Positions 6,624 through 39,700 of a stretch of 64,000 nt of DNA are shown here, one piece after another. Each line of letters opens with the position of its first letter. The first letter of the stretch is position 1. Origin of the DNA: Siphonodentalium dalli (lineage: Eukaryota; Mollusca; Scaphopoda; Gadilida; Siphonodentaliidae). Where the stretch lies: the NCBI GenBank assembly GCA_032622095.1, contig CP136065.1, positions 249,177,474 to 249,241,473 on the forward strand. The letters are read 5' to 3'. A program made the translations under genes and the position numbers. The notes beneath the pieces are model-generated. The model made no database searches, had not been told where the DNA came from, and was given only the letters and a program-made list of their open reading frames with translations.

Positions 6624-6789
6624 ATGGATACGCAACCTGCCTATCTTCGAGGAAGGGGCAGGGGTAGAGGGCGAGGTGAGGGCCATTTTGGTGGTGGCCA
6701 GCAAGTGGGCAGAAATACACAGGTGAATGGGCAGAACAGATTTAGTGATAGCCAAAAAGAAAATACTGCAAATGTATGGAAAAAACAAG
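6624..6789 (+). CDS. NFXL1: NFXL1 coding exon 1 (start codon, RGRG-rich)
   Basis: The exon begins after TTTTTTTCACAG (acceptor at 6601-6602) with 21 nt of 5' UTR. A four-codon upstream ORF starts at 6609. The ATG at 6624 is the only one that opens the conserved frame. It encodes [16 protein letters not shown]..., an Arg/Gly tract like that near the human NFXL1 N-terminus, then a Gln/Asn-rich linker ending KKQ. The donor is CAAG|GTATGT, phase 1. The start is supported by position and by the repeated RG motif rather than by strong sequence identity. Confidence 0.85.
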
Positions 6790-12700: not shown

Positions 12701-15700
12701 TTCTTACATTCTTTAACAATTTTATAATTTTTAATGTGTTAAGCCAATGCATTCTCTTATATATGCGAGGCGACCTATGGTCGACTCGCATATATAAGAG
12801 AATGCATTGGCACAGGGCCCTTCTGTTGGGTAAAGGGTTAATGTACTGCGATGGGTATTCTTAGTCTCATTGTGACAGTCCCACCTCTAGCTTCACTTTG
12901 TATATGTTCTCTATTTACAGACACTGTTAATGATAATACTCCCAATGATAATACTAACAGGGCACAGGACCTGTTGCTGCATGCGTTCCGATCTGGTACA
13001 TCCGCCTGTCTAATCTGCATAGAAACTATCAAGAAGGAAGAAGCCGTGAGTAATACCACCATTGGGTTTAATCTGGATTGACATTGTCCATCTGTGTGTG
13101 TCTCCCATCGGTCCATGTCTCAGCCATGAGTTTTCGGATCTGAGTGAAATTTGGTATGGAGACTGATGGAGGCAGGGTTTCCGTTAGACCGATGTAAAAC
13201 AGACCAGGTTTTTATGCCCAAAAAAAATTAAACAGAATGTAAATCAATATAAAAAGTGTTGTTTTGTACAGGACCAGTTCTTTATTTGATTTCCGATCAC
13301 CGGTCGCTAATGCTACAAACTGCAACAGATCATATGAAAGCAGCCCTCTGTGTTTTACCATTGACTATTTAAATTTCGTGGGAAACAAATCCTAAGAGTC
13401 ATTCCTTAAAATGAGGGTAACTAGAAATGCAAAAATGTCAGCGATTGGGGTGTATATACAAACTTACTTTTCCTTATCAAAAGTATGATTTTGGCGAGAG
13501 AGTCTGTGTGGATGACAAGTGGCAGGAAAAACCTGTGCATGAGGTGACACTCCACAGTTTCGAATGATCAGTAGGGGTGATTTTATAGATATAAAGTGCT
13601 AGTGGTTTCTGGCACCATTCATGTGGTATGTATATTGAGACAAGGTGGGATATGAATTTGTGTAATTATAGAAGGTGTTCTAGACTGATGAAAAAATTAA
13701 GTGCAAGTGACCTTGACCCCACCCATAGACAGCAGTAGCGTTTTCTGCAAAACAGTGGCTCTAGATACTGGGTCAATTTTTTAGCACCCAAAATTTGTCA
13801 TCTGCATTAAAAATTGATTTTCTGGAAAATTTAATGGCGAAAGTTTGAAATTTTTTCACATTGATGTTGGAAGCCAGAGGCCTTTAAACCAACATAGGTG
13901 ACCATGCTTGAAAAAATCTTGTATTCGTGCCTCTTGGGTATGAAAATGCAATATTTTGGTCATTTTTTGAATAAAAATCACATTTAAGATCAAGGGCTAG
14001 AGCTGGGACGGTTATGTGTTTTTCGTGACCGGTTATGAACGGCAAAAAACCGTGATTAACCGGTTAACCACATATTATAGGTAATATTATGGGTGGGTAA
14101 GCCCAGTATGCAGAACGGCGATGATTGTGATGCTCACTGACATGGTAAGTTTGAGAACGGCTCCTGCCCATTATACAAAGAAGTTGTCACCCATGACACA
14201 CATAATCACATATCTAATTAAGTACACATCTTCAATTTATTACTGAATAAAATAAATATACAATGTCATTCCCCTGTGAGGCTGTGTTGTGTTCATTTAT
14301 TGTCCTTGTAAAATTACTCCATCGCCATCGGGATATGTGATCGGGCGGGAAGCTGAACACACCGACACGGAAGTGACGACTAGAAAGGTTTAATATACAT
14401 TCCGGAATATTTTATTGATTATTCCGCAATTTCCGGTAGCTGGGTGGGCGAACAATTATTATTTATTCTTAATGAAATACTTACATATACGTTGGTATGT
14501 GATGTTGTCCGGGGGGGGGAATGGATTGAAGGGCCGGGAGTCTCAAGAAATAACTAGTCGTTGATAACAAAAACAATTATCTTCCTGATAATAATACTGA
14601 ATACGAGTCATGCAATGTGACAATGTTGTAAGATCACACGTGTGCTGACCCTTTGATGTTTCGTTTTGACGTCGGCAGGCTGTTAAATGTAGACTTCAAA
14701 GAGCCGACACACCGCGTTTGATGTTGTTCCGTCAATCTCGGATTCATTTTAATTGACGGAGACAGATTAACCCTCTTATAGCCAGTTATAGCTGACCATC
14801 ACAGTGATCATACACTATAATAGTGATGTTACGGTTAACCGACCACGGCAAATCCGTGACCGGTCACGGCCATAGTTGGTGGTTAACCGGTTAACCGCAT
14901 AACCGTCCCAGCTCTATCAAGGGCCATAACTCTTGATAGCCCATATCTTATGGAAATTATGTATCAAATTCTGAATGCCTATTCTGTACTAATTTCAGGC
15001 ATATATATATTGTCTATATGGTTTGGGATCATAATCCAGATAAATTTCAATGAATCTATGGGCCCCCTAACTGTGGAGTGTCACCTGAGTTAGACATGGT
15101 TGATCAGTCGAGTTTTTCAAAAACTCGACTTATGGTTTGACGAGGGACGGTTGGCGGGCGGGCGGGCGAACCTAAAGAATGCCTTATAACTTTGACATTT
15201 GTGAACGGATTCAAAATTTTGTTGGTATGGCAGTTGCTCCCAATGACTATTTACTGCCTGTAGAAAATGGGTCACGTCCGAACTTTTTTACAAGAGTTAT
15301 CCATCTTAGATGGTTTTATGGAAATTTATGGAAATTATGTATCAAATTCTGAATGCCTATTCTGTACTAATTTCAGGCATATATATATTGTCTATATGGT
15401 TTGGGATCATAATCCAGATAAATTTCAATGAATCTATGGGCCCCCTAACTGTGGAGTGTCACCTGAGTTAGACATGGTTGATCAGTCGAGTTTTTCAAAA
15501 ACTCGACTTATGGTGACACTCCACAGTTTCGAATGATCAGTAGGGGTGATTTTATAGATATAAAGTGCTAGTGGTTTCTGGCACCATTCATGTGGTATGT
15601 ATATTGAGACAAGTTAGGATATGAATTTGTGTAATTTTAGAAGGTGTTCTAGACTGATGAAAAAATTAAGTGCAAGTGACCTTGACCCCACCCATAGACA

Positions 15701-18700
15701 GCAGTAGCGTTTTCTGCGAAACAGTGGCTCTAGATACTGGGTCAATTTTTTAGCACTCAAAATTTGTCATCTGCATTAAAAATTGATTTTCTGGAAAATT
15801 CAACGGTGAAAGTTTGAAATTTTTTCACATTGATGTTGGAAGCCAGAGGCCTTTAAACCAACAAAGGTGACCATGCTTGAAAAAATCTGGTATTCGTGCC
15901 TCTTGGGTATGAAAATGCAATATTTTGGTCATTTTTTGAATAAAAATCACATATTCGATCAAAATATCAAGGGCCATAACTCTTGATAGCCCATATATTA
16001 TGGAAATTATGTATCAAATTCTGAATGCCTATTCTGTACTAATTTCAGGCATATATATATTGTCTATATGGTTTGGGATCATAATCCAGATAAATTTCAA
16101 TGAATCTTGGGCCCCCTATTTCTGGGCCCATACCTGTTGAAACTGTGGAGTGTCACCTATGGTTTGACGAGGGACGGTTGGCGGGCGGGCGGGCGGACCT
16201 AAAGAATGCCTTATAACTTTGACATTTGTGAACGGATTCAAAATTTTGTTGGTATGGCAGTTGCTCCCAATGACTATTTACTGCCTGTAGAAAATGGGTC
16301 ACGTCCGAACTTTTTTACAAGAGATATCCAGCTTAGATGGTTTTTAATTAAGTTTTTCACCGATAGCACGATAACTCGCGCAAATATTAACCATTTTCAA
16401 CAATATTTGGTATATGAGACTCTTGCAACAATATCTCGGACGAGTTCGAAAACCAGGTTTGTCCGAATTTTTTTTCCGGATTTATGGGTCTTAGTTTGTC
16501 TATTTTTAGCAAATTTATCACCGTTAGCGCGATAACTCGTTGAAATATTAACCGATTTCAACAATATTTGGTATATGAGTCTCCTGCAACAATATCTCGG
16601 ACGAATTCGAAAACCAGGTTTGTCCGAATTTTTTCGCGGAGTTATGGGTCTCAGTTTGTCTATTTTTAGCAATTTTATCACCGTTAGCGCGATAACTCGA
16701 TGAGATATTAACCGATTTCAACAATATTTGGTATATGAGTCTCCTGCAACAATATCTCGGACGAGTTCGAAAACCAAGTTTGTCCGATTTTTTTCGCGGA
16801 GTTATGGGTCTTAGTTTGTCTATTTTAATCACAATTTTATCACCGTTAGTGCGATAACTCAATGAAATATTAACGGATTCAATTGATATTTGGTATATAG
16901 GTCTATTGCAATAATATACCACCGTCCAACTTTTTTTCCCGGAGTTGTGCACCTTATTGGCAGAAGTTTGGTTCGACTGCCAAAAACTTGACAAAAGCAT
17001 CTTAGATGCGTACCCCTTGTTTAGCATTCGTCTGGTATGTACTGTACGTAAAATCAATCCTCTGTTAATCCATCCTTATATTTCTCTCAGAAAATTATGA
17101 GTTTAAATGGGAATGTACAATCTGTGCCATGAATATCAACTTATATAGTACCATTGACAATTTCACAAATAGTAATTCCGCATTCAGGATTAGATTATTT
17201 TTTTCACCCTGAAAATGATGTAAACAAATAATTATTCATAAAACTTGAATTAATACTCACCATATTATAACTTGTTTCAGATTTGGAGTTGCAAGGGTTG
17301 TTACTGCATGCTACATTTAGTTTGTATACAAAAGTGGGTCAAAGAAGGAGTACACCAACATTTTTACAAATCGGAGGAAAATAGCCCCAACACTGATATA
17401 CCATGGTTCTGGTAAGTTAATACAATAACCCCAACACTGATATACCATGGTTCTGGTAAGTTAATCCAATGCATACCTTAGTTGTGGTGAGGTTTCACAG
17501 TTTTAAAGGCCTCAGGTGGTTTGGAGCCTCAAACAATACTTAGGCACTGTTCGCATACGTTACACTATGCATCAGTTAGCGACCGTATTTAGGTCGTATC
17601 GACGTCTTGTTTTGATTGTCACACACAGAGCAAGATGATATAACAACATATTTACTTGAGTAAAGGTTACCCAAGTCAAAATGGCCATAAACTTATCTGT
17701 CAACGCAATAGAATCAAGACCTAATTAATGGTGGATGTTATTCATCTTGTGACCATCAAAACAACATGCTGATCAATACGACCTAAATATGGTTGCTAAG
17801 TGATGTGTGGCGACCTAAATATGGTTGCTAAGTGATGTGTGGCGTGACCTAAATATGGTTGCTAAGTGATGTGTGGCGTGAGTGAACAGTAAATATGGTT
17901 GCTAAGTGATGTGTGGCATGAGTGAACAGTAAATATGGTTGCTAAGTGATGTGTGGCGTGAATATGGTTGCTAAGTGATGTGTGGCGTGAGTGAACAGTG
18001 CTTTAGTAATTATTCCATTTTGTCACATGTTTTATGCAGTTTCAGGGTCCAAAATAAGTCCATTTAAGAAATGGATGTTGATTTGCTTGCATTTCATGGA
18101 GTATGGATGCAAGTTGGTCTGACATTTTTTGGGGAATGCAAAAATGTCAGACAAATATGCATCCATATTCAATGGAATCAGCCTTCATTTCTTGTATTTA
18201 CAGTCAACAGATTAATAGAGCATTTAGCCAGCTGATTAATTGAGCATTTAGCCAGCTGAATTATATTAATAGAGCATTTAGCCAGCTGAATTATATTAAT
18301 AGAACATTTAGCCAGCTGAATTAGATTAATACAGCTGAATTAGATTAATAGAGCATTTAGCCAGCTGATTAATTGAGCATTTAGCCAGCTGAATTATATT
18401 AATAGAGCATTTAGCCAGCTGAATTATATTAATAGAGCATTTAGCCAGCTGAATTATATTAATACAGCTGAATTAGATTAATAGAGCATTTAACCAGCTG
18501 AATTAGATTAATAACGAATTTAGCCAGCTGAATTAGATTAATAGAGCATTTAGCCAGCTGATTAATAGAGCATTTATCCAGCTGATTAATAGAGCATTTA
18601 GCCAGCTGATTAATAGAGCATTTAGCCAGCTGATTAATAGAGCATTTAGCCAGCTGATTAATAGAGCATTTAGCCAGCTGATTAATAGAGCATTTAGCCA

Positions 18701-21700
18701 GCTGATTAATTGAGCATTTAGCCAGCTGATTAATAGAGCATTTAGCCAGCTGATTAATAGAGCATTTAGCCAGCTGATTAATTGAGCATTTAGCCAGCTG
18801 ATTAATTGAGCATTTAGCCAGCTGATTAATAGAGCATTTAGCCAGCTGATTAATAGAGCATTTAGCCAGCTGATTAATAGAGCATTTAGCCAGCTGATTT
18901 AGCGCCACTTAGAAACATGTATATTAATGAGGTATCTCCTTAGAAACATGTATATTAATGAGGTATCTCCTTAGAAACATGTATATTAATGAGGTATCTC
19001 CTTAGAAACATGTATATTAATGAGGTATCTCCTTAGAAACATGTATATTAATGAGGTACGGTATCTCATGATGGTGAATCCCCTGCATATTTGAACTGAA
19101 TTTATGAGACAGAGAATAATGCCAATAAATATGACTGATAATATTTTAATAATATTTGTTTTTATAGATATGATATGAGTTTTGATAAAGATATGAGTGT
19201 CATTGCTTCAAATCAACTACATTTTGGTTGTCAATAAGGAACGGACTTAACAAAAGCTTGAAGTTTAAACCAAATATTATCAAAAATGTATGTCGGAATA
19301 TCCAGGGAGAACAGGCAATCGACCTACCGGTATCAGAATATCTGTTATATGCAGCATTATGTAAGGTGCAGTAACCATTTTCATTATTATCATTACAGCC
19401 CAAAATGCCGATATGAATATAAACAGAAGGACTGTCCTAAGAGATATCACTGTTTCTGTGGAGTAGAACAGGATCCGAAGTTTGACCCGTGGCTGGTACC
19501 TCATTCATGCGGGAACAAATGTGGTAAACGACTAATACCAAGCTGTGGACATGAATGTTTGCTGCTTTGTCACCCAGGTATTTGGAGTTATATCCCTTTA
19601 TACCTGAATGGAATCTTTCATTCACATTAGGCCCCTGTGAATAGTGGGATTTTGATTGCATCAGATTTCGAATCGAAAAATTGAAAAGTAAATCGAATAT
19701 CTCATAATTTTGGTCGATGAATTGATAAGATAAATATATGTTTCCCATTTTTGTTTGTATATCAGAATTATCTGAAATAAAACACATCGTCATCTTTTTT
19801 TGTAAATGGTGGATCGACAATTAAAGACATAATTTCTTTAAAATATAGCAAACAATTTGAAAAATACAAATTTGTCAATTTTTGTGCGTGTAAATAAAAA
19901 CTTCCGGTATCGAATGACATCACTATTGGGGAATTCCACACTTTATCGATTCAAAACGTGGAATAGGAGATGGACCATTGAAAAATTTCTATGTCTATTG
20001 TATATTTTCCACTTTAGGCCTCAGAACCATCCTGAACACCTCTGTTGGCAAATTGTGTTATATAAGAACCTAATATATCTGTCAGTTGTAACTGAGAATT
20101 CCCTTAAGGCGACACCAATTTTTAAGTCTGGTTTACGAACATGTGGGGAGAAAAAAAGTAGATGCAGGAGGGAAAAAAAATAATAATAAAAAAAATTGTC
20201 CCCCCAATTTATATCAAGTAAATCGTGGAATTTTACATGAATTTTACAAAAATTGTAAAAAAAAATGTTTTTGAATGAAATTCTGAACCAAACAAGACAT
20301 TTCTTGTCATGAAATACATGAAAATATGGATCTGTAAATGATCATAAGCAGAACCGGATGCGACAGCACATGAAAATCAGTACGCGTGTAAACAATTTTG
20401 GGAGAAAAAAGTTTTATTTTTTTTCATGGTGTTTGTAAACCAGACTTAAAAATTGGTGTCGCCTAAGGTATTTATTTCTATATTTCAGGTGCATGTCCAC
20501 CTTGTCCTAAGACCGTTAACGTGAAGTGCCATTGCGGGAAACAGCCACCCACTGTAAAACGATGCAGCGCTCGGACATGGTCGTGTGCACAGCCGTGCTT
20601 ACAGCTTCTATCATGTGGCCATCATAACTGTGAATGGTCGTGTCATGAAGGTGAGAACTAGAGGGCAATATAGGAGATATCTTCTCCCTAAAATGTGCCA
20701 ATTCTGCATAAATTTGTCATTGGGAGAAGTGACTTCTTTCTCATATACGTGTATGCATATCTCCAAACAGAATACTAAAACTGTATTTTTCTCCTGAAAA
20801 TTAATTTCGGAGGACTATAGAAATCAGCACTGTCCATCCGTGTGTGTGTCCATTCGTCCATCTATCCGATCCGGTCGTAAGCGCAATAACTCAAACAAAT
20901 ATTAACCACTTTCAAGGATTTTTTGTTTATGAGTTGGTTGCCACAATATCTCGCTTGAGTTCAAAAACCAGTTCCGTCTGATTTTTCTTACCTGAGTTAT
21001 GCCCGTTAGTTTGACAATTTATCGCCATTTTTCGTCGTAAGCGCAATATCTCAAACACATATTGACCTATTTCAATAAATATTTGTCTATGAGTTGGTTG
21101 CCACAGTATGTTGGACGAGATCGAAAACCAGTTTCGTCCGATTTTTCTTACCTCAGTTATGCCCCTTAGTTTCTCACTATTTTTTTGTCATAAGCGCAAT
21201 ATCTCGAACAAATATTAACAGATTTCAATAATTTTTTGTTTATATGAGTTAGTTGCCACAATATCTTGGACGAGTTTGAAAACCAGTTTCATCCGAATTT
21301 TTTAACCGAGTTATGCCCCTTAGTTTGACAATTTTTCGCCATTTTTTTGTTGTAAGAGCAATATCTCGAACAAATATTAACAGATTTCAATAAATTTTTG
21401 GTTTATGAACAAAATGCCCCTTAGTTTGATGATTTCTCGCCATTTTATGGTCGTATACTTTTAGTTATGTTTCTTTAATCAGAGTAAAATTTGTTATGTG
21501 GAATAATTAATTTTATTCCTAACACTGCCAATCTCTGAGTTAGCCTTCTCCGTAATAACAATCCACTTCTCCCTAATAACCAAACAGGGAGAAGTGAATT
21601 TTCCCAATTTGAAACCCCTAGGTTGGTCTCAGCACTGCACGATTTCCTTTTCAAGCCTTGTAATAGTGTGTCTGTCATTTGCAGAATGAGGTCCCCAGAG

Positions 21701-24700
21701 GGTTAATTTAGTGAGACCGGTTTTTGAGTCTCACTGAAATTTGGTATGAATGTTCACTACTATGAAGGCAATCAATTGAGTGTTCAATCATTATATTGAG
21801 TGTTCATTTTGTATTGTATCTAAGTCTGTGATTTCAATACCTTTTTATTTCCTTCATGTTCAGGAGAATGTCCAGCCTGCCCTAAGACGAGCACACAGAA
21901 ATGTCAGTGTGGGAAGTGTGCACTGATGCGACCATGTGCTAGCATAACGTGGCAGTGTGATGAGGTGGGTGTCATAATATCTTTTAGGGAAACTTGTAAT
22001 ATTCAGGCAAATTCTTTTCTTCATGGTACACATTGTTTGCTTTTAGGAGTTTAAATCAAATTTAGTGTATTTTTCAACCAATCAGAAAAAACTTTTTTCA
22101 TTTTCTGAACAAGGAAGTTTCTTATTACCCAATGACAATGCAAAATTATTAAGGAAAAATATGGTGAAATGATTCCACAACAAGCATCTACTAACATACA
22201 AGGGATTGCACTGAACATAATTATCTACTAACATACAAGGGATTGCACTGAACATAATTATCTACTAACATACAAGGGATTGCACTGAACATAATTATCT
22301 ACTAACATACAAGGGATTGCACTGAACATAATTATCTACTAACATACAAGGCATTGCACTGAACATAATTATCTACTAACATACAAGGCAGTGCACTGAA
22401 AGTAGGTATCAATCTAATAATGTTCCATATTTTATGGTCCTCGCCCCTGCTCTGACATCAGAACATTTCTGCTTGGAGGATAACTGTTTGTGGTGTGTGA
22501 AGTATTATGGATAATTTACTTTTGAATTATTTTGCAGATTTTCACTTGTCTGTTCAATAGCTTGTGCCATGTTATTTGGGTTTCCATAATTATTTTGTGT
22601 ATAGAAGTGGTAATTCAGTAACTTATGCCACAATAGAGACCTGTCGCTAAATCACGATTACGGATATGGACAATATCATGCGATTCCTGCCAGTATATGG
22701 CCAAAAATTTGATCTTGACACACGGATAAGGACATGGGATCTGAAGGTGACACACATTACTTTTCCATCAAATATGTGCCTGAATATAGTGGGCATATTC
22801 AAATTATTCACCAATTAACCATCGTATGTAAGTTGTGATGGTGTCCACCTTACTAGGACAATACATCCTATCTGTAATCGTAATAGTGATTTTGCGAAAA
22901 GTCTCTAATGAAGATAGATATCAGAAAAGTTATAAGAGCAGAAATATGGTTAAGCGGTATTTTGACAACTTCAGTCAGAAATAACCGTCATAATTTGGAG
23001 GCTTAAATGAGCAATAACTATTGAAACAAAATAAAACAGAATTTAAATTTAATGATTCATTCAGGTATGGCTGTAACGATTCATCATGAATTTAATAAAT
23101 CGCAATAGACTTTCAAACTGTATGCGTATCGTATCCTGTTATGTGTATCATGATACAGGAAATCACGTAATTTCTGAAGATGGGCATGTGTAAAACAGCC
23201 AAAACTAATAATATAAAGAATATTAATTATATTATAGGGTCCTCACACAAAGCATGTTTTAGTAGGACTATCCCAATGATAATAGAGACCTTTCGCAAAA
23301 TCACGGATATGAAATTAAATATATGTCCTGATTATGTTGATTTTATTTATGAAATATATGTCCTGATTAGGGACCTGCGAATATTCGAGATTCAATTCGA
23401 TGTCGATATCGATATCCGGCACCCGATTCGAGATAGACATCTGCTGATTCAGATATTTTTAAATCGGTGTTACTTTTTGTAGTCTCGATTTTTGCGTCTA
23501 GATAACACATGACAAATGACCTGAAATCACAAGAAGTGAAGCACAAGGTTGCCAACGTAGGTAATTATGAATGTATGCCATTCAGAATAGATGTGCATTA
23601 TGCAAATTATGTGCTTCGATCGCAACCCGTGACGGTGATTAATCACCGCATATATTTGTAATCTGTTTTGACACTATCTAAATTGTCTACACAGTGTGTG
23701 ATCGCTAGATTGATTAACGTATGTTTAGAACTTCGGATATCCAATTCAGATTATACGAATAAAATTCAATGTCAGCCACCGTTATGCGCGACAAATAGTA
23801 GAGTGGAATGAACAGAAACCTTAGAACAATCGGTCTATTACGTTTTTAAATGGACATCATTATGTGCGACCAGTTATCTGCGACACTGCCGGCAGAATTT
23901 ATAGAAATTTCCTATTTTCAGTTTCTGTTTCCCGGGAAATCGAGCGTGTTGCACCAACTTTCTGTTTTCTGGGACCCCCTCCATGAAGACAACTACTGTG
24001 AATAGGTGTTTGAACTATTGTGGGTTGAAAAGTTTTAACAATAACAGTCACAGATAACTACCATTGGTATCGGACTACAACAATTATATAGCTGAACGGT
24101 GTACCCATGTCCAAGTGTGTCAAATCTATATTATCTGTATTAAATAATGTAGACAAATGACTTTCATTCCATGGGGTTTGTGATACGTTGATTGAACTGT
24201 CTTTTTGTTTCTTACTATCACTTCTTGTGTCATGTTCGCCATGACACAGTTAGATAGAAATTCAATGCAACATATCCCAAACCCTCCATTAGACTGAGAG
24301 TGACTTGACTATGTCATGATTTTCCTAAAAATAAAACACAAGTTCCAACTGATGTTTATGGAGATTAACATTGTTATATAGTATCTGACGAATTTTGCAT
24401 TTTTTTTGTCATGAGACACCGAAATAAACACTGGTAAACAATGTCAATCACTGGCTGATTCGATTCGAGATTCGATTAGATGTCGATATCAGGAAAGAGA
24501 TTCAATATCGAGATTCGATTTGATGCAAAATCCCTGATTCGCAGATCCCTAGTCCTGATTATGTTGATTTTGTTTATTAAATATATAAGATTTCAAGATT
24601 TTATTTGATAACGAAAGCTCCATGTCGGAACATCAAAATTTGTAAATAGTAGAAGAAGAGAAGAAAATATAACAATAAATAATAAATAATATAACTATAA

Positions 24701-27700
24701 TAATAACGTGCACCAGTTTTCTGTATAATGGAGAGTAACTCTAATAATGCCTAATGTATTTCCAATGGCTATGTGCTAATTACGCTAGTATAGTATGAGA
24801 TTCTAAAGGAGTAGATTCTTTAAAATTAGTTAATTACATCATTGAATAAAGATATTTTTACACTAGGGTTATATCCTGATTATGTTGATTTTATTTACAG
24901 CCCTGTGGTAAGACTCTAGATTGTAAGCATCATAAATGTGAGAGAATATGCCACTCTGGGCCATGTGGGTCATGTCCGAGGTCTGGTAATCGGAAATGTC
25001 CATGTGGGAAAACAGGTACGTTCTATAATCAATATCTGTGTGGGAAAACAGGTCAGTTCTATAATCAATATCCAAGTGCGAAAACAGGTAAGTTCTATAG
25101 TCAATATCCAAGTGGGAAAACAGGTAAGTTCTATAATCAATATCCAAGTGCGAAAACAGGTAAGTTCTATAATCAATATCCAAGTGCGAAAACAGGTAAG
25201 TTCTATAATCAATATCTGTGTCCATGTGGAAAGACAGGTAAGTTCTATAATCAATATCTGTGTGCGAAAACAGGTAAGTTCTATAATCAATATCTGTGTG
25301 CGAAAACAGGTAAGTTCTATAATCAATATCCAAGTGCGAAAACAGGTAAGTTCTATAATCAATATCTGTGTCCATGTGGAAAGACAGGTAAGTTCTATAA
25401 TCAATATCTGTGTGCGAAAACAGGTAAGTTCTATAATCAATATCTGTGTCCATGTGGAAAGACATGTAAGTTCTATAATCAATATCTGTGTGGGAAAACA
25501 GGCAAGTTCTATAATCAATATCTGTGTCCATGTGGAAAGACATGTAAGTTCTATAATCAATATCTGTGTGGGAAAACAGGCAAGTTCTATTATCAATATC
25601 TGTGTGGGAAAACAGGCAAGTTCTATTATCAATATCTGTGTGGGAAAACAGGTAAGTTCTATAGTCAATATCTGTGTGGGAAAACAGGTATGTTCTATAA
25701 TCAATATCTGTGTGGGAAAACAGGTAAGTTCTATAGTCAATATCTGTGTGGGAAAACAGGTAAGTTCTATAATCAATATCTGTGTGGGAAAACAGGTAAG
25801 TTCTATAATCAATATCTGTGTGGGAAAACAGGTAAGTTCTATAATCAATATCTGTGTCCATGTGGAAAGACAGGTAAGTTCTATAATCAATATCTGTGTG
25901 GGAAAACAGGCAAGTTCTATTATCAATATCTGTGTGGGAAAACAGGCAAGTTCTATTATCAATATATGTGTGGGAAAACAGGTAAGTTCTATAGTCAATA
26001 TCTGTGTGGGAAAACAGGTAAGTTCTATAATCAATATCTGTGTCCATGTGGAAAGCCAGGTAAGTTCTATAATCAATATCTGTGTGGGAAAACAGGTAAG
26101 TTATATAATCAATATATGTGTCCATGTGGAAAGACAGGTAAGTTCTATTATCAATATCTGTGTGGGAAAACAGGTAAGTTCTATAGTCAATATCTGTGTG
26201 GGAAAACAGGTAAGTTCTATAATCAAAATATGGCCAACAACACCATAATTTTCTCATGCTACCATGTCATCTATTTTAAAACTTTATATCTTCTACAATA
26301 ACCATTTCTTTACTAAATGGACTCTCCCATTAATTTATAAAAGTATACATTGGAATGGCCTATTATTCATTTTGAGGGGTATACAGGATAAACTAGCAGC
26401 TGACAATCAGACGAAAAGATAATACAAGTGCAGAAGGATTCATATTCATTGGCAGGAGATGTGTAGATAATAAGTTCAACAAAAGATTGTCTGTTGAACT
26501 TATTATCTGAACATTTCCTATGTGAACTAGTCATCAATGAGTGTTTAGTATAGAAAAGGTTAACATCCCTTGAAATGTGAGCCATTTTCAGTAAAAGAAG
26601 ATAAACTATGCCTGTATATTGAGTTGAAAACAATTGGAAATAAAGACAATGCTCAGTAGAATATGATGAATAATTATACTATTGACCTGTTGAAGATCGT
26701 GCCACTTAGAATATGGTGATAGTTGACATGCGGATACATGCATTATACTTATTTAGGAATCTGTAATCATGTTTTATCCATGCAAACAGACATGTTATAT
26801 GGCACCATGCTGGTCACATGTGGCAATACTATGTGTTTACATTTGTGACAAAACTTGTACTCATTGACGAGTAGTTCAGATAGGAAATGTTCAGATAATA
26901 AGTTTAACAAACGATTGTTCATATTCCCAAATGTTTATTTCAGAATTTGATCTGCCATGTACAGATGATATTCCCACATGTGGCGATACTTGTGACAAAA
27001 TGTTGAATTGTGAGATGCACCAATGCTCACAAAGATGTCATCTCGGTCAGTGTGGCACTGTAAGTGTAGACAATATATATAATAAAAACAACAATCCATT
27101 TATTACACGTATTCTACAGATATTGGGCCATAAAAAAAAGATATTTGATTCTCATGCATTTTTTTAGCTCAACTTTTCTTTGTAAAGTTTGAGCTATTGC
27201 CATGGCTTTTGGTATCCGTCGTCTGTGTGTGTGCGTGTGTGATTCGTCAACAATTTTCTTTAGCACGGGCTACAGGATGTACCTTTGCTCGGATCATTAT
27301 AAAATTTGGCATTGCTGTGGACATTGACATGTAGATGGGAACGAGTCATTTGGGGGTCGCTCGGGAAACAAACATGGCTGCCAGCGGCCATCTTGGATTT
27401 CAAAATTCAATCCATTAGCATGGGCTACAGGTCGTACATTTGTCTAATCATTATGAAATTTGTCATGGATGTTAATATTGACATGCAGATGGGAACGAGT
27501 AATTTTGGGGTCGTTCGGCCAAAAAACATGGCCGCCAGCAGCCATCTTGGATTTTACTCTTTGCATGATTAAATCCTTTGGCGCGGTCAACAGGTCGTAC
27601 CTTTGGTCGGATCATTATGAAATTTGTTACGGCTGTTGACATTGACATGTAGATGGGAACGAGTCATTATGGGGTCATTCGGCAAAAACACATGGCCGCT

Positions 27701-30700
27701 AGCATCCATCTTGGATTTCAAAATTCAATCCATTAGCACGGGCTACAGGCCATACTATTTGTCTTAATGTCATGAAATTTGTCATGGATGTTAATATTGA
27801 CATGTAGATGGGAACGAGCCATTTTGGGGTCATTTGGTAAAAAAACATTGCCGTCAGCAGCCATCTTGGATTTTACACTTTGCATGACTAAATCCTTTGG
27901 CACGGGCTACAGGTCGTACCTTTAGTCGGATCATCATGAAATTTGTCACAGATGTTGACAATGATATGTAGATGGGAACAAGTCATTTTGGGGTCATTCT
28001 GCAAAAAAACATGGCTGCCAGCTACAGGCCATACTGTTTGTCTGATCATCATGAAATTTGTGGTGGATGTTAATATTGACATGTAGATGGGAACGAGTCA
28101 TTTTGGGGTCATTCGGCCAAAAAATATGGCCGTCAGCAGCCATTTTTCATTTTACTTTTTGCATGACTAAATTTTTTGGCACAGGCTACAGGTCGTACAT
28201 TTGGTCGTATCTTTATGAAAATTGTCATGGCTGTTGACATTGACATGTAGATGGGAACGAGTAATTTTGTTGTCATTCGGAAAAAAACATGGCCACCAGC
28301 AGCCTTCTTGGATTTCAAAATTCATTCCATTAGCACAGACTACAGGCCGGAGTGTTGGTCTGATCATCATGAAACTTGTCGTGGAAGTTAACATTGACAT
28401 GTAAATGGGAACGAGTCATTTTGGGGTCATTCGCAAAAAACATGGCTGCCAGTGGCCATCTTGGATTTTACTCTTTGCATAACTGACCTTTAAACTTTCC
28501 ACATTCCTAATCACTGCATTGACTGTAACACATGAAATTATTCCCTTTCCAAGTTGAGCTGCAGTGTCATTGACACTTTCATTTTTTAAATCAATGCGGG
28601 AGCGAGGGTTTTATTTGAATTATTTATTCTTTTTCTGCCCACTGACTGGCATAGTAAGCATGGGTTATTATAGCTTCCCAGATCCAGAAAAAGTAGGGAG
28701 AACTTTGTAATGGATTTAAACTAATTTAATCTGATATTAAGAATTACAAATTATGACATTATACTACCCGTACATATAGAGATTACCTAGAATGATATAT
28801 ATATTGATATGATTTTAATATCGGCACAATCATATTTAACAACATGCTCAGAACTGCATATCCGATTTATATAAAAATACGGAACTTAAATATAGTCGAA
28901 ACAAAAAGATAAAGTGATCTTCCAAACTATCATAGAAAGTCTTGATTCACTTATTCCGCTGACTAATTAGAGACTGTATATGTACTGCAATGGATGATAG
29001 ACTATAAAACTACAAATAAGTTATTTTGAAATAACCATCATAAACATATCCAATATACATCGCTTTTCAAACTGTATTGTGGTCCAGTTTGCATATAGCT
29101 TCCATTGCAATAGCATAGCAAGGGGGGAAACTCTATCTTGAGGGTTACTTACTTTCTGTGCAAAGATCAAAATATTTCTTCACATTTGACCAATAAACTT
29201 TGGGTTTTGGACAGCCTGTGGTGACAATATACCTGATAATTATCATTGCCTATGGTCTTTTGTTGAATACCCACACATACAACGTTGTATTTAGCTCCTA
29301 TTCGATATTTGAAACAAAACTAATTTCCGTTTGACAGTTTAATATTTTCATGTTAGCGGCTTTCAACTGCGGTGAAAATTTTAAATCCAATAAAATGGTC
29401 CAACACAGCCATTTTTTTCGATGCGGCTATGCCTGAGAATCAAAACCCCTTTTTTATTAGCCTTAGTTTCATTGGATGGAGCAAGTAAAGCTCCGCAACA
29501 GAGATGTTGCCAGCATGGGCATAAATTACTATCAAGCATTTCTGCCACAAGCCAGTTATTCAATTTACAACCAAGGTTTCCCTCAATAATCACAGTACTA
29601 AGTCGCTTATCAAAGGCAACTAACACAGTGTAATGAACAAATTGCAGCAAGTTGGATTAAAATGCATGGCATCTTCACACCATGACGTTACATGTAGATC
29701 ATGCTTGCCACTGGATTGCTGTGTCACTGTTAGCTGTTTGTTTGTTAGAACTACAGTAATGCCCCAATTAATCGACTCCATAACCACAGCAGAATTATGG
29801 GTAACTTTTCAGGATTTAGTCGGAAATATGGCTAAGTTATCCATAATTCTGCTGTGGTTATGGAGTCGATTAATTAGGGCATTACTGTAGCTAAATTTTC
29901 AGAAATGATATTGCAAGCTTTTCATGTTGGCTATACACTTTTCGTATAGTTTTATCTTCTAAGCCAGTGCATTCTCTTATATATGCAAGGCTCTCTATGG
30001 GAGACTTGCATATATAAGAGAATGCACTGGCACAGGGTATTTAATGCTGCACCAGCGCAGCTCCCATCATTAAAGGGTTAAAGATCATGTGCTAAAAAAA
30101 TCATTCTTTATTATGTGCATATATATATAAGAGAATACTGGCTTACAAGGTCAAGCTAAATATTGTTAGGCAAATGCATTCTCTTATATGTGTGAGGCTC
30201 CCTATGGGAGACTTGCAGATATAAGAGAATGCAATGGTGCAGGGTTTTTGCCCGTTGGCAATTTTTGGGGGGAAATGGCCAAATTTCAAGGCTGTATTCA
30301 GAAACCACCTTTCAAATCAAGTTATCATCAGATCTGAAACTCTTAGTTCATTAACAGCTGAACAGCAGTATGTATGGATAACTATTTATTGAAAGTCACA
30401 CCTGCTTAAACTTATCAAAACAATAATGTTTACCACTAGAACGGTGTTCTTTCCTGAGGCATTATATTTGTTATTACTTGGTTTACGGATTTCCCTACCC
30501 CAAAAAAGCTGTTTGTCAAAAAAAAAAAATTCGTTTTTTTTTATTTCCGCCAATGGGAATATTAATCCAGACATATAACAAATTTTTTTAAAGTATAAGT
30601 TTGCATAAAATATACAACAACGAAGCCTCCATTATGGTATTTAATGTCAACGACAACATCACAGACATTGGTATTGGCGATATTTTTTCATCTATCAGTT

Positions 30701-33700
30701 TCTTGCTTTAAAGACACATCTAAAAAAAAATAATAATTTCCTATGTAAGTGGACAAGGGCAAAGCATATCTGTGGGTGATGTGGTGGCTTGTTTTAGATG
30801 ATATTATTATACAGCAAGTATTTTATTTCTCCCGACCCTATTTTTTGACAATTTAAACTAAACAAAAATTATACGGATTTTATCTTAATTTTTTTCTCTC
30901 CCACCTCCCCTACCTTTTAGCCAAAACAATCTGTAAACAAAGTAATAAATAATTAAATGCCTTATCAAGTGACAATACTTTACTGTTCATTTGTTGATGA
31001 TCTCATATTTTGGTTTTTCAATTTTGCCAAAGTTTCTCCATCAATGACTCAGTTGACTCAGTTGACTCATGGTCAGTGACTAACTTTTTATGTGTACCCA
31101 TACCATGTATGGTACACATAATGCCGACGTCCGGATCAACCATCCGTCGTTCGTCCGTCCGTCTGTCCGTCTGTCCGTCTGTCTGTAGACACTTGCTATC
31201 CGATTCGATTACTTGAGTAGTTTTTATCGGATCATGTTCAAATTATATGTGCATGTTTATGATGACAAATGGCTCACCTGTATAGTTTTTGGTATCGATT
31301 GGTTGATCGGTTTAGAAAATAATTAACCCTGCTCACAAATGCTATCCGATGTATCGAAGTCAAACAATTTTCTTCTGATCTGCCTCATATTTCTTACCTA
31401 GGTCTTTCTTAGCACGTTCTTCATCTGTATGGATTTTGGTATTGTTTAGTTAACCCTTTCCACTCTTGTTTTTAAATAGAATTCATCCAAGCCAGGATGA
31501 CTCAAACATTTTTCATCTGATCGACACCAATTTTGGTATATGAATTTCTGACCCCTAAATATAGATCAAGTGCGAATATGGGTTTGATCCGGTATATATT
31601 AACAGAGTTATGGCCCTTTATAATTCATACCTCTTTTCCATGCACTATTAAATTTGAATAGAACAAGACACAACACACACCTGTGTTATTGGAAGGAGAT
31701 AATTTATTGCTTTGGACACAGTGACCTGATAGTTCCACTTGTGGCTGCAGACTTATAAACATCTGTCAAACTTTGATTGATGTTAGACTCTTTATTCCAG
31801 TTCTGTTCTCTGTTGAAACCATGCAGTTCATGGCATTATTGTTTACAGAGACACTGTTGTTATAACTTAGAAAATAATTAATACAGCATTCCTTAGTTCC
31901 ATCATATGATGTCATTGAAAATGATTAACCCTCTGCACACATCATATGGTCTTCTGATGTTTTTTATTTGATCATTCTCCTATTCTATGTACATGTTGAT
32001 GGTGATCCACTTTTAATTTGCATGGATTTGGGATTAAAATTAACCCATTCGATTGACTCATATTATCTGTTAGACATATATTAAATTATCACTTTAACTT
32101 TGAGCCAGGTTCAGTCAGTGTTTCAAGAAATGACCAATTGAAATTCATCATTAGAGGATATGTCTTATTTTGAAATTCCCTCAATTGCATTTGGGCTACA
32201 GGATAATATTAATAGTGCTGGGATTCTTGAGACTGACTTATTGTATGGGTTTCTAAATCCAATGACATGCTTTTTGTTGACTACTCTGTGTTTATCAGTT
32301 CATTAGTTTGGGTAAGATTAACCCCTTACTATCCAATTTGATAACTCAAATATTTCCATTGATTATGTTTATAGTTCTGGCACAGTTTATGATAACACAC
32401 CTCTAACCTGCATAGTGAGGGTCATTTGGTTTATTTGCTTAAATATATTAACATCCTTCACCAATCCTGTTGACACAATGTGATAGCTAAATATTTTTTG
32501 CATGATTACTCTATAAATAATCACATCTGTGATAATCATGACACATTCTTCACCTGTATAGATTTTGGTGTCGATCGAATGGTTGTGATAATATTAACCT
32601 TAACTTTAATTATATTTAAACTGTTCACAAACATATCTTTCTAATGATCAACTTACAAGAAAATTAACATTTATATCCAATCATTAGCAATCATATTTTA
32701 TATCCAGGTCTATACATCCCTCACTTCTATAGTTGATCAGGTATTGATTGTTTTTTAGTGGTTGTTATGAATTTTTATTATGCAGCTGACACAAAATATA
32801 ATAAACAAAAAAATAGTAATGATAATAAAAAAAAACACACAATATGTAATGTCTCATGTTCCAATGTAATAAATAGATAAATTGAGTTGCTATGATGTTT
32901 ATCTACCTAATTTCTTAACTATTTGATATTTAACAGCTATGGTGCTTCTCTCCAACTATGGATTGAGCTTAATTAGCCTTATAACTCTATAAGACATACA
33001 TGTATCTGTGTTGGAGTCACTAATAGGTTGAAATCAAAGCCACGTCTGTTAACATTGTGTTAATGTGAGCAAGGTGCCGAATAAGTGTGATTTCACTTGT
33101 GAATTAATAGTAAGGTGTGAATTGTTTAAAGTTTTGCACTCATGAAAAGGATGGGGTAAGGATATATGAAAATAGCTCATCGCTGTCGCCAAGGTATGGG
33201 TTAAACATCTGCCGATCGTGATCGGCCTCTCGTTATTATTTGCTTGCATATTTACTCTCTTTTTTTTAAGTGCTTGCAAATGGTAACAAAGAAATGTCGA
33301 TGTGGACAAAAACAGAAAGAGGTGCCATGCCATAAGGAATTCACTTGTGACGTGAAATGTCCTCAAGTTAAAGACTGTAAGAAGCATCAGTGTAAGAGGA
33401 AGGTAAATCACAAATATTCCAGCATTATTTCTCAGCATGAAACTTTATTTTACTTTTATTCACCTGGAATTAGTCAAGGTGAACACTTTGGCAGTGTCAT
33501 TAGTTACCATAGGAATGTGTGGTGTATGCCATTTTTTTTTCATCATTCCGCCAGAACTGTTTATTGTTCGGATGATAACTCGATTAAAATTTGACTGGAT
33601 TGGTACACCATAGGGCACTATTAATTGTCTTTTGGTGGACATGACGTTGCAAGCAGCGAACCATTGTTCTCTATCCTATGAAGTTTGATGCCTTGATGCC

Positions 33701-36700
33701 TAGCACTAATGTCGGGGTTCGTACGCCCCTACTGGAAACTTGAATATACTGGAAAAAGCAAATTCAACTTTCCAGTACTGGAAATATACTTGAAAAACGA
33801 TCTCCGGCCGATCGATACTGGAATATACTGGAATCGGCAGATTTTAGGTAGCACCGGTCACTGGCACTGGATGTTATTTTTCGTAACACCGGTAAAACAC
33901 AACGCGGTGCTTCCTGTTTGACCATTTATTTTCTCGTGTCTTATGTCTACAACACCGGTTTATAAATTTAGAATAGAAGTATAGTTCAGCGCGAATTCTA
34001 GATGAAATTTGTACATTACACATTTAACACATTCAAAACATGCGCTGGAGGTGTGTTTTTCGCGAGAATTGGCTTGAGATTACCGAGTTTAGGGGATGGT
34101 TGGCTGCCGTCGATGGAGATTGACATCGTGCGAAGTGTCTTGTATGTTCAAAGACATTTGACATTGGAAATAGACATTAGATTAGATTTATTCGATGGTT
34201 CAGGATATATCACATGGTACATGATACACATACTATGGGTATGTTTACAATTTGAGTAAATAGGATACATAACAGTATATATAATATTATAATTATAATA
34301 ATTTATATTAAATATACATATGTTATATGTAGGGTTCTGATGAGACAGATAAAGTTCAGACTGTGCAAATAATTGATATATAAGAGAATATATCAATTTT
34401 CTCAAGAATTAATTCATTTTATAGAGGTTGCCTTCAGAATATATGATAAATTATGTGGCAGAAATCTGTATAAAATAGAAATACTCATGTGACCTGAGAC
34501 CATCAGGGATAACGCAAAAAGTTCTCTAAATGAGAACTTAATTTTCCATTGCGGTCCCTGATGGATATTACAAACTACTTGCATGGTTTTGAGGTACTGT
34601 TTATAGACAGTGACTTAAATATCACTGACATAATGAAGCCAACACGTGAATTATCATTAAAAAGGATGTTTGGGTGAGTTCATTGGTTCAAATCTTGGTT
34701 TGGTGGCCGTAAGGAGTCGTAATACTGAAGTTGGGGGGCGTAGAGACTCCCGTCACCTCTCTGGCTAAGTCTGTGACAGTACGTAACCCTAACCATAAAC
34801 CTGGGAGCGAGTAGAGTAGTCCTAACCCTAAACCTGGGATCGAGTAGAGTAGCCCTAACCCTAACCCTAATTCGCCATACTGGAAATTCATAACATCAGT
34901 ACTGGAAATATACTGGAATATACTGGAAAATGATTCCAGACAGGGTGTACGAACCCTGTAATGTATGCAATGGCATTTCACTAGTGTAATACTGTGGCAC
35001 AACTTGGCCACGAAACTTACATTTATTAATATAATTTATACCAATCTCATGTCACATTCTGTGCTATAGAATTCCAGTCGACTAATTTCGTGGATTCCTT
35101 TGAATTGCTCTGTTTATTTCTAATCGAAATATGGAACGATATCCTCATGTAGCGGATACAATTTCTAGAAGGAAGTGATATGGATTGTTTGTTCACTGTC
35201 CATCATTTCCAGTTCACCATCTCATTGGCAGATTCTAGTGTACATATCATGATTTTTCAGGCGGTGTGAATTAGAATGGGGATAAAAATGCTGTCTGATG
35301 TGATATTGGGATGTTTATCGGTGGATTTTCCAATGAATAATATCTGTTTTACCAGCTCCTCGCATCACTGGTATAACTGCATTTTCCATCATAAAACCGA
35401 CCAATAAATGTCCCAAAATCACACCACACCATAATTATCCTCATTTTCTCAGGTCATCTGTGCTATATGATGAGATGTTAACATTTATAATTTGATTTGT
35501 TTTCTAGTGTTGTGATGGAAACTGCCCAGCATGTGAATTAACTTGCGGGAAGGCACTCGGTTGTCGGAATCACAAATGTACAAGCCTGTGTCACAGAGGT
35601 AAGTATCTTTTTTATTTTTGGCTGTATCTAGGCAGTCAGTCTATAGTATTATTGATTTAGTCCACAGAGGTAAGTATTTGTACAGATTTTGACTGTCTAT
35701 GTAGTCAGTCTGTAGTAATAGAGACCTTTCGCAAAATTCACCATTACGGATAGGACATATTGTCCTGTTAAGATTGACACCATCACAATTTACCTACGAT
35801 GGCTAATTGGTGAGACGGCATATGCCCCACTTTATTCAGTTACACATATATTTGATGGGAAAAGTAATGTGTGTCTATTTCAGACCCCATCTTTTTACCG
35901 TGTGTAATACATCACACGGATAATGTTAGAGCATCCCCAAGCAGGACCGGTGGCACATTCTCGACACATCTGCACATAATTAAACTGTGTGGGGTACATT
36001 TCGTCTCACATAAGAACCCCCGCATGTAAATGTCGATTTTGGCCATATACTGACAGGATATTTCCATATCCGTAATCGTATTCGTGATTTTGCGAAAGGT
36101 CTCCATTATTGATTTAGTCCACATACAAGTCACAATTGAAAGTATCATTCACACATTTTTCACTGTATTTACAGATGCAATTCATCTTGCATTTGCTTAA
36201 AAGCGTACCACAGTTATTTAGTACAGATTGTATTTATTTCTGTTGTATAAAACGTAAATAAAAAGGTTTGCATGTGCAGGGTTTCTGGACCATACGAAGA
36301 AACAGGAAATTGAATTTGCGTGGCCTAAGAGGAATTATTTAAGTTTTGTTTACATAATAATGGTTTCAACACCCATTTTTATACGCCCTTTTTGAAAAAA
36401 GGTCGTATTATGTTATCAGTCTGTCCGTCTGTCTGTCCGTCTGTCCGTCTAGCCGTCTGTCCGTCTGTCTGTCTGTCCGTCCGTCCGTCCGTTAACATTT
36501 TTGGTTTCCGATCGATAACTCCAGTTTGGATTATTTGATCTGAACCAAAGTTGGTATGTGTATTTCCCAGCTAAAGATACAGGCCAAGTTCGAATATAGG
36601 TTCCGTCCAAATATTTTTACATGAGTTACGGCCCTTTTTCGACTTAGAATTTGACCGTCATTTAACATTTTTGGTTTCCGACCGATAACTCCAGTTTGGA

Positions 36701-39700
36701 TTATTTGATCTGAACCAAAGTTGGTATGTGTATTTCCCAGCTAAAGATACAGGCCAAGTTCGAATATGGGTTCCGTCCAATTATTTTTACATGAGTTACG
36801 GCCCTTTTTCGACTTAGAATTTGACCGTCTGTTAACATTTTTGGTTTCCGACCGATAACTCCAGTTTGGATTATTTGATCTGAACCAAAGTTGGTATGTG
36901 TATTTCCCAGCTAAAGATACAGGCCAAGTTCGAATATGGGTTCCGTCCAGTTATTTTTACATGAGTTACGGCCCTTTTTCAACTTAGAATTTGACCAATT
37001 TCATAACATTTTGGTTTCCGACCGATAACTCCAGTTTTGATTATTTGAGCTGAACCAAAGCTGGTATGTGTATTTCCCAGCTAAAACAACAGACCAAGTT
37101 TGAATATAGGTTCTGTCTAATTATTTTTACATGAGTTATGGCCATTTTTTCAACTTAGAATTTGACCACATTTTGGCATTGAAATTAGGGGTATATCATA
37201 TTTTCTTCAAATGTAAGCTCAAAGTATTATCTTATTTTGCGATAGTACAATTCGAAATGGCTAAAGGGCGTATTTTGCCACGCCCTAGCGATGCTCTTGT
37301 TTTTTTTGGAAAACTATCAATAAAGGATGTAAGTTGATAAAACTATCAATAAAGGATGTAAGTTGATAAAACTATCAATAAAGGATGTAAGTTGATAAAA
37401 CTATCAATAAAGGATGTAAGTTGATAAAACTATCAATAAAGGATGTAAGTTGATAAAACTATCAATAAAGGATGTAAGTTGATAAAACTATCAATAAAGG
37501 ATGTAAGTTGATAAAACTATCAATAAAGGATGTAAGTTGATAAAACTATCAATAAAGGATGTAAGTTGATAAAACTATCAATAAAGGATGTAAGTTGATA
37601 AAACTATCAATAAAGGATGTAAGTTGATAAAACTATCAATAAAGGATGTAAGTTGATAAAACTATCAATAAAGGATGTAAGTTGATAAAACTATCAATAA
37701 AGGATGTAAGTTGATAAAACTATCAATAAAGGATGTAAGTTGATAAAACTATCAATAAAGGATGTAAGTTGATAAAACTATCAATAAAGGATGTAAGTTG
37801 ATAAAACTATCAATAAAGGATGTAAGTTGATAAAACTATCAATAAAGGATGTAAGTTGATAAAACTATCAATAAAGGATGTAAGTTGATAAAACTATCAA
37901 TAAAGGATGTAAGTTGATAAAACTATCAATAAAGGATGTAAGTTGATAAAACTATCAATAAAGGATGTAAGTTGATAAAACTATCAATAAAGGATGTAAG
38001 TTGATAAAACTATCAATAAAGGATGTAAGTTGATAAAACTATCAATAAAGGATGTAAGTTGATAAAACTATCAATAAAGGATGTAAGTTGATATAAAGGA
38101 TGTAAGTTGATATAAAGGATGTAAGTTGATATAAAGGATGTAAGTTGATCTATTTTCCATGTTCTTAGTGCAGCTGTTTTTAAAGACTTTAATATTTTTT
38201 TACACATTAGCCCACTCTGAGTGCCTTGTGTCCCTTCAAATGAAGAATTTAAATTAACTACCCACCAGTGTGTACACTGTTCTAAAAGGCTTAATGTTAA
38301 CCTTTGTCATTTCACTCTACAGGTCCGTGTTATCCTTGCCCTCTGACTGTGTGGAGATCTAAAAGGCTTAATGCTAACCTTTGTCTTTTCACTCTACAGG
38401 TCCGTGTTATCCTTGCCCTCTGACTGTGTGTGGATATCTAAAAGGCTTAATGCTAACCTTTGTCTTTCACTCTACAGGTCCGTGTTATCCTTGCCCTCTG
38501 ACTGTGTGTGGATATCTAAAAGGCTTAATGCTAACCTTTGTCTTTCACTCTACAGGTCCGTGTTATCCTTGCCCTCTGACTGTGTGTGGATATCTAAAAG
38601 GCTTAATGCTAAACTGTATCTTTTCACTCTACAGGTCCGTGTTATCCTTGCCCTCTGACTGTGTGTGGATATCTAAAAGGCTTAATGCTAACCTTTGTCT
38701 TTTCACTCTACAGGTCCGTGTTATCCTTGCCCTCTGACTGTGTGTGGATATCTAAAAGGCTTAATGCTAACCTTTGTCTTTTCACTCTACAGCTCCGTGT
38801 TATCCTTGCCCTCTGACTGTGTGTGGATATCTAAAAGGCTTAATGCTAACCTTTGTCTTTTCACTCTACAGGTCCGTGTTATCCTTGCCCTCTGACTGTG
38901 TGTGGATATCTAAAAGGCTTAATGCTAACCTTTGTCTTTTCACTGTACAGGTCCGTGTTATCCGTGCCCTCTGACTGTGTGTGGATATCTAAAAGGCTTA
39001 ATGCTAACCTTTGTCTTTTCACTCTACAGGTCCGTGTTATCCTTGCCCTCTGACTGTGTGTGGATATCTAAAAGGCTTAATGCTAACCTTTGTCTTTTCA
39101 CTCTACAGGTCCGTGTTATCCTTGCCCTCTGACTGTGTGTGGATATCTAAAAGGCTTAATGTTAACCTTTGTCTTTTCTCTCTACAGGTCCGTGTTATCC
39201 TTGCCCTCTGACTGTGTGTGGATATCTAAAAGGCTTAATGCTAAACTGTATCTTTTCACTGTACAGGTCCGTGTTATCCTTGCCCTCTGACTGTGTGTGG
39301 ATATCTAAAAGGCTTAATGCTAACCTTTGTCTTTTCACTGTACAGGTCCGTGTTATCCTTGCCCTCTGACTGTGTGTGGATATCTAAAAGGCTTAATGCT
39401 AACCTTTGTCTTTTCACTCTACAGGTCCGTGTTATCCTTGCCCTCTGACTGTGGATATCTAAAAGGCTTAATGCTAACCTTTGTCTTTTCACTCTACAGG
39501 TCCGTGTTATCCTTGCCCTCTGACTGTGTGTGGATATCTAAAAGGCTTAATGCTAACCTTTGTCTTTTCACTCTACAGGTCCGTGTTATCCTTGCCCTCT
39601 GACTGTGTGTGGATATCTAAAAAGCTTAATGCTAACCTTTGTCTTTTCACTGTACAGGTCCGTGTTATCCTTGCCCTCTGACTGTGTGTGGATATCTAAA

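Follow-up and report, generated by a model that had tools for sequence, protein, structure and literature searches.

Boundary-spanning minisatellites as the probable source of repeated splice sites in the NFXL1 gene of Siphonodentalium dalli

Exon 8 of a gene in the scaphopod Siphonodentalium dalli (genome of 2.23 Gb in 9 contigs) runs into a tandem array in which every unit carries a splice donor. This raises the question of whether the array provides a protein with a variable number of extra modules or is a repeat that straddles an exon boundary and is mostly ignored by splicing. We examined it in a window comprising the whole 64,000-nucleotide stretch of DNA analysed (C5:249177474-249241473). 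The answer we favour, and hold to be likely, is that the array is one of several minisatellites spanning boundaries of the gene, and that splicing mostly bypasses their extra sites, with exon definition picking the exon-proximal one.

NFXL1 and the donor array at exon 8

Searches with mollusc NFXL1 proteins (tblastn), together with splice signals, identified the main plus-strand gene of the window as NFXL1, and the resulting model of 18 exons (Table 1) agrees with the first-pass annotation, made from the sequence alone, in both the name of the gene and the number of the exon. Five stretches of the encoded protein score over Pfam's cut-off for NF-X1 type zinc fingers (PF01422). The top match spans the entire 656-residue query (100%) with 58% identity; among the best 120 of 995 matches the closest homologue, at 58% identity, comes from the freshwater mussel Sinanodonta woodiana, and the named proteins among the matches listed are mostly NFXL1 or NFXL1-like. 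No near-identical protein from the source species was seen in the protein searches. Every intron of the gene is at least 911 nt long.

Table 1. NFXL1 and its boundary-straddling repeats (positions are those of the window)
Feature	Position	Strand	Description
NFXL1 coding region	6624..59653	+	18 coding exons, open CDS, 907 residues
Acceptor array before exon 2 (9848-10063)	7853..9879	+	Steps of 122 bp in most cases, 56 bp in some; 15 pattern-matched acceptors
Duplicated donor boundary, exon 4 (17281-17411)	17380..17470	+	44-bp unit; single in second copy
NFXL1 exon 8	24901..25015	+	Own end CPCGKT plus EFDLPC of exon 9 gives the conserved protein
Donor array at exon 8	25003..26226	+	33 donors, 36- and 42-nt units (TRF); each unit joins the exon end to about 23 intronic nt
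NFXL1 exon 9	26944..27059	+	From the gene model
Acceptor array before exon 12 (39862-39982)	38281..39873	+	Mostly 79-bp steps; 19 acceptors by pattern
Array of last codons, stop codon and 3' flank	59635..60584	+	50-bp unit, 18.7 copies (2.7 in second copy)

The exon ends defined by the array donors run from 25015 to 26209, a span of 1,194 nt made up of 25 units of 36 nt and seven of 42 nt; the earlier count of about 30 donors, the length of the span and the position of the first in-frame stop (TAA at 26299-26301) were thereby borne out. Most donors read CAG/GTAAGT (23 of 33), as had been described, and the others are CAGGCAAGT (five), CATGTAAGT (two) and CAGGTACGT, CAGGTCAGT and CAGGTATGT (one each). 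Each unit takes its exonic part from the final 13 (or 19) nt of exon 8 and thus holds exon end, donor and intron start, the make-up of an exon-intron boundary VNTR. Since the unit is built in this way, the CPCGKT of the 42-nt unit is the end of the exon, which is how the CPCG of the longer module comes to copy the exon's own sequence, a resemblance already noticed in the first pass.

All 33 donors lie in phase 1, in a frame that stays open as far as the TAA. The idea that any of them could serve exon 9 was right as to phase and slightly too generous as to the join, because the two CAT/GTAAGT donors form a TAA across it and 31 donors, not 33, give an open junction. The stop-free frame itself was also as reported, although it is not a special feature: over its length two of the three forward frames and one reverse frame are free of stops, with a single stop in a further reverse frame, so that the open frame is little evidence of coding.

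Exact matches to the 21-nt core of the unit number 28 genome-wide: 15 lie in the window, and the remaining 13 belong to an inverted copy of NFXL1 about 245 kb from the window copy. The second copy has 18 of 18 exons without gaps and an intact coding sequence of 907 residues, which differs at 11 of 2,724 nt (eight synonymous and three non-synonymous codons), and intron lengths differ widely between the copies (intron 13, 2,721 vs 8,016 nt). Its exon 8 array contains 55 donors in 49 units of 36 nt, one of 42 nt, three of 34 nt and one of 32 nt; two copies of the gene in one assembly, whether alleles or paralogues, therefore carry 33 and 55 donors at the same exon. At the level of the whole window, a near-identical inverted copy with many intron length differences lies at about C5:249402031-249469763 on the minus strand and, judged from its sequence, could be a segmental duplication or a retained haplotype.

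Repeats at other boundaries and the choice of splice site

Exon 8, the place noticed in the first pass, is one of five in NFXL1 at which a repeat straddles a boundary, the others being exons 2, 4 and 12 and the stop codon with its 3' flank, and at all five the copy number differs between the two gene copies. The units of the exon 2 and exon 12 arrays each hold an acceptor and the start of the exon. When exact-pattern acceptor sites are counted, those in phase and open amount to one of 15 in the window (9848) and one of 24 in the second copy at exon 2, and to one of 19 (39862) and one of 10, respectively, at exon 12, and in each case it is the exon-proximal site. At exon 4 the extra donor sits past an in-frame stop, read-through meeting TGG TAA. 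Further arrays stop 10-11 bp upstream of the acceptors at 52724, 57652 and 59426.

Boundary-straddling arrays are also not confined to NFXL1, as is evident from two other exons. One, found in a genome search for three successive donors, belongs to USP47 (Pfam USP47_C, E 1.6e-12) and is followed by 11.0 copies of a 41-bp unit, in which one of nine exact donors, the first, keeps the frame; the surrounding 18.9 kb contain two TRF arrays, one of them at this exon. The other is a rabenosyn-5-like exon, which matched no Pfam or NCBIfam family over its cut-off and shares 14 of 27 residues with an approximate human rabenosyn-5 fragment. It precedes a long array of 55/56-bp units with a TGA in frame after the first donor, as judged by eye, and a second array like it is present about 0.41 Mb away.

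The exon 8 array probably arose and is tolerated as follows. The minisatellite would have been seeded when the boundary between exon 8 and intron 8 was tandemly duplicated, which would account for the donor in every unit, and the array would then have expanded and contracted as non-coding DNA. Because exon 8 is short and its flanking introns are long, cross-exon pairing of U1 at the exon-proximal donor (25016) with the 24901 acceptor would yield the normal NFXL1 mRNA, while the remaining donors would be decoys that are mostly bypassed. The same exon-proximal choice would operate at the acceptor arrays of exons 2 and 12 and at the duplicated donor of exon 4. We infer both the site used in RNA and exon definition as the reason for its use; by frame and join, no site other than the exon-proximal one fits the protein at exon 2, 4 or 12 or at the USP47 exon. 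A splicing decoy cluster had been the second choice of the first-pass annotation, and it fits these data better than the protein-module reading that had been its first.

Experimental results from human genes are in line, by analogy, with splicing at the exon-proximal site. In a set of five human minigenes, each with a pair of identical CAG/guaagu donors and introns of 365 nt, the upstream donor was used exclusively (Carranza, Shenasa and Hertel 2022, PMC9225289), and in CBS 844ins68, where the junction of intron 7 and exon 8 is duplicated, splicing settles on the distal copy (PMC2630376). The minigenes resemble NFXL1 in their identical donors and long flanking introns, but have two donors and were designed, whereas NFXL1 is a natural gene with dozens. 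Similarly, 844ins68 is a duplicated junction of which splicing keeps one copy and makes a normal mRNA, as we propose for NFXL1, although it is a single 68-bp duplication and not an array.

What speaks against bypass is how weak the window copy's first donor is. The two donors nearest the exon had been called weaker than those downstream, and a U1-pairing estimate concurs, with values of -7.4 and -7.5 kcal/mol compared to -11.6 for the 23 consensus donors; the first strong donor of the array is at 25087, and its use would add 72 nt (24 residues). With 31 of the 33 donors open to exon 9, there is no sequence penalty for using the array donors of this copy. Moreover, in the human data the stronger of two donors was dominant in 86% of events and, when strength was left unfiltered, about 60% showed a preference for the downstream donor (PMC9225289). 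Leakage from the weak first donor is therefore possible in the window copy. That it is appreciable enough to generate transcripts from array donors, as an unselected, low-level and functionless isoform ladder, seems to us unlikely, however, given that cross-exon proximity favoured the first donor in the minigene results cited above and that the protein fits the exon-proximal site only at the other exons in question.

Reading frame, unit variants and protein spacing

The first-pass annotation had proposed that alternative donors insert a variable number of modules, 12 or 14 residues long, between two of the NFX1 fingers, producing an expandable zinc-finger protein. A selected protein-length device of this kind would be in keeping with the uniform phase and 31 open joins of the window copy, with its weak first donor and with donors 1 to 15 of the second copy, which are also open to exon 9, but we consider it very unlikely. 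In the rest of the second copy's array the 34- and 32-nt units break the frame, and 40 of 55 donors have no open join to exon 9, so that the frame of a coding tandem repeat is not kept in every copy. As the coding sequence of the second copy is intact, an intact gene carries an array that is not frame-neutral. Breakage of the three-base periodicity in other individuals had been named beforehand as an argument against the modules, and the second copy displays it, which counts as such if that copy is taken as another individual. The frame neutrality of the exon 8 array in the window looks like an accident of unit length, because the other boundary arrays of NFXL1 are not frame-neutral; neither is that of USP47.

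The variation among units likewise gave no sign of coding constraint, in a comparison of distinct variants that has low power as the events are few. In the window copy the variants were four synonymous and 11 non-synonymous, and in the second copy four and eight, with no stop in either, where 21 synonymous changes, 79 non-synonymous changes and eight stops are possible over the 36-column unit (units of 42 nt were trimmed to 36 columns, and the second copy contributed 54 units less the four that measure 32 or 34 nt). The absence of stops among these variants is no evidence either way.

Comparison with homologues also argues against the modules. The array's insertion point falls within a seven-residue spacing between CxC and (P/A)C that is kept in 116 of 121 aligned sequences (the window's own and the best 120 of 995 homologues); one of the others has eight residues, and four are off-pattern and, as printed, without room for a module. 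The first donor (25016) gives back this conserved spacing. A protein search with the array ORF returned eight matches, seven of them NF-X1-type and covering 8-10% of the query and one of low identity, and no protein with the array module was found among the 7,998 candidates, those sharing most words with the query, that were scored.

An assembly artefact behind the array lengths or the second copy is most improbable, for although the near-identical inverted copy could be a retained haplotype and the rabenosyn-5-like array also has a second copy, unit order and intron lengths differ between the two NFXL1 copies, and no gap or N run is present in one 7-kb piece at the midpoint between them. Even if the second copy were a retained haplotype, its arrays would represent genuine variation in length. 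The midpoint piece also has no large palindrome.

Wider occurrence and related systems

Genome-wide pattern counts point the same way as USP47 and the rabenosyn-5-like exon, toward arrays beyond NFXL1. Three occurrences of CAGGTAAGT at 20-50 nt spacing had 1,559 matches vs 295 for the reversed pattern, and triplets of AAGGTGAGT had 1,109 vs 61 for the control, the counts being unnormalised, their matches non-independent within an array and the first places listed all on C1. Of the C1 arrays examined, those of USP47 and the rabenosyn-5-like gene are at exons, a possible membrane-helix exon with no family match precedes the one at C1:100.42M, no exon was seen by eye at C1:24.34M, 28.09M or 257.63M, and the array fills the whole of the stretch fetched at two more places (L027 and L038). 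Having been picked by a donor search, the C1 arrays give no information on frequency at exons. A long satellite with GTAAGT-like donors repeated in its units extends over C1:231.99-232.06 Mb (L038-L049).

Within the window, arrays make up 26% of the sequence, and their overlap with exon boundaries is not enriched: five of 36 boundaries are covered, with the ends of exons 3 and 4 one base off, compared to expectations of 8.4 under random placement and 9.3 under circular shifts. Array edges show a modest enrichment near boundaries, which is a hint, no more, as it rests on 43 arrays merged by hand from TRF output and on cut-offs picked after the data were seen. Edges lie within 35 bp of eight of the 36 boundaries vs 3.1 expected from circular shifts (1.3% of which were as high) and 3.3 from random placement (1.9%). 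The corresponding values are five vs 1.5 within 15 bp (circular shifts 1.4%, random exon placement 2.3%) and eight vs 4.8 within 60 bp (10% and 15%, respectively).

The human CBS gene has a 31-bp VNTR at exon 13/intron 13. The unit of this VNTR, by its name c.1444_1467+7(16_21), spans 24 coding and 7 intron bases and occurs in 16-21 copies (PMC2630376). The exon 8 array is of the same kind and the CBS VNTR is the nearest known case, since in both the unit spans coding bases and the intron start, and the exon edge is repeated. The two differ in that NFXL1 exon 8 has 33 or 55 copies of its donor, and in that NFXL1 also has acceptor and stop-codon arrays, several in one gene.

Studies of how splice sites are chosen usually set just two sites in competition. 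NFXL1, a single intact gene, has 33 or 55 donors at exon 8 and between 10 and 24 near-identical acceptors per acceptor array, and its two natural copies differ in the strength of the first donor (GTACGT in the window copy, GTAAGT in the second), making it a natural test in which junction use would reveal how far cross-exon proximity overrides the number and strength of sites. A much broader proposition, which we rate as doubtful, is that junction-biased repeat growth acts genome-wide, leaving many genes with exon ends at which anything from ten to dozens of near-identical splice sites stand in a row, where they would be tolerated through exon definition until the exon-proximal copy weakens, as in donor 1 here, and a heritable, length-variable isoform ladder results. 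If true, such growth would be a source of change in splice sites and intron boundaries.

The introns of the window copy hold other repeats and insertions. In intron 11, away from any exon, 27 units of 29 bp (37310-38093) are 100% alike according to TRF and have a GTAAGT in each, probably as the outcome of a recent expansion. Intron 16 has an insertion of about 2.7 kb (53164-55846), lacking in the second copy, with two ORFs that match the DDE_1 transposase (54077-54460 and 54432-55217). Tandem repeats of about 160 bp at 27258-28484 and 48454-50065 form one family in two introns and resemble stretches in the region of the second copy.
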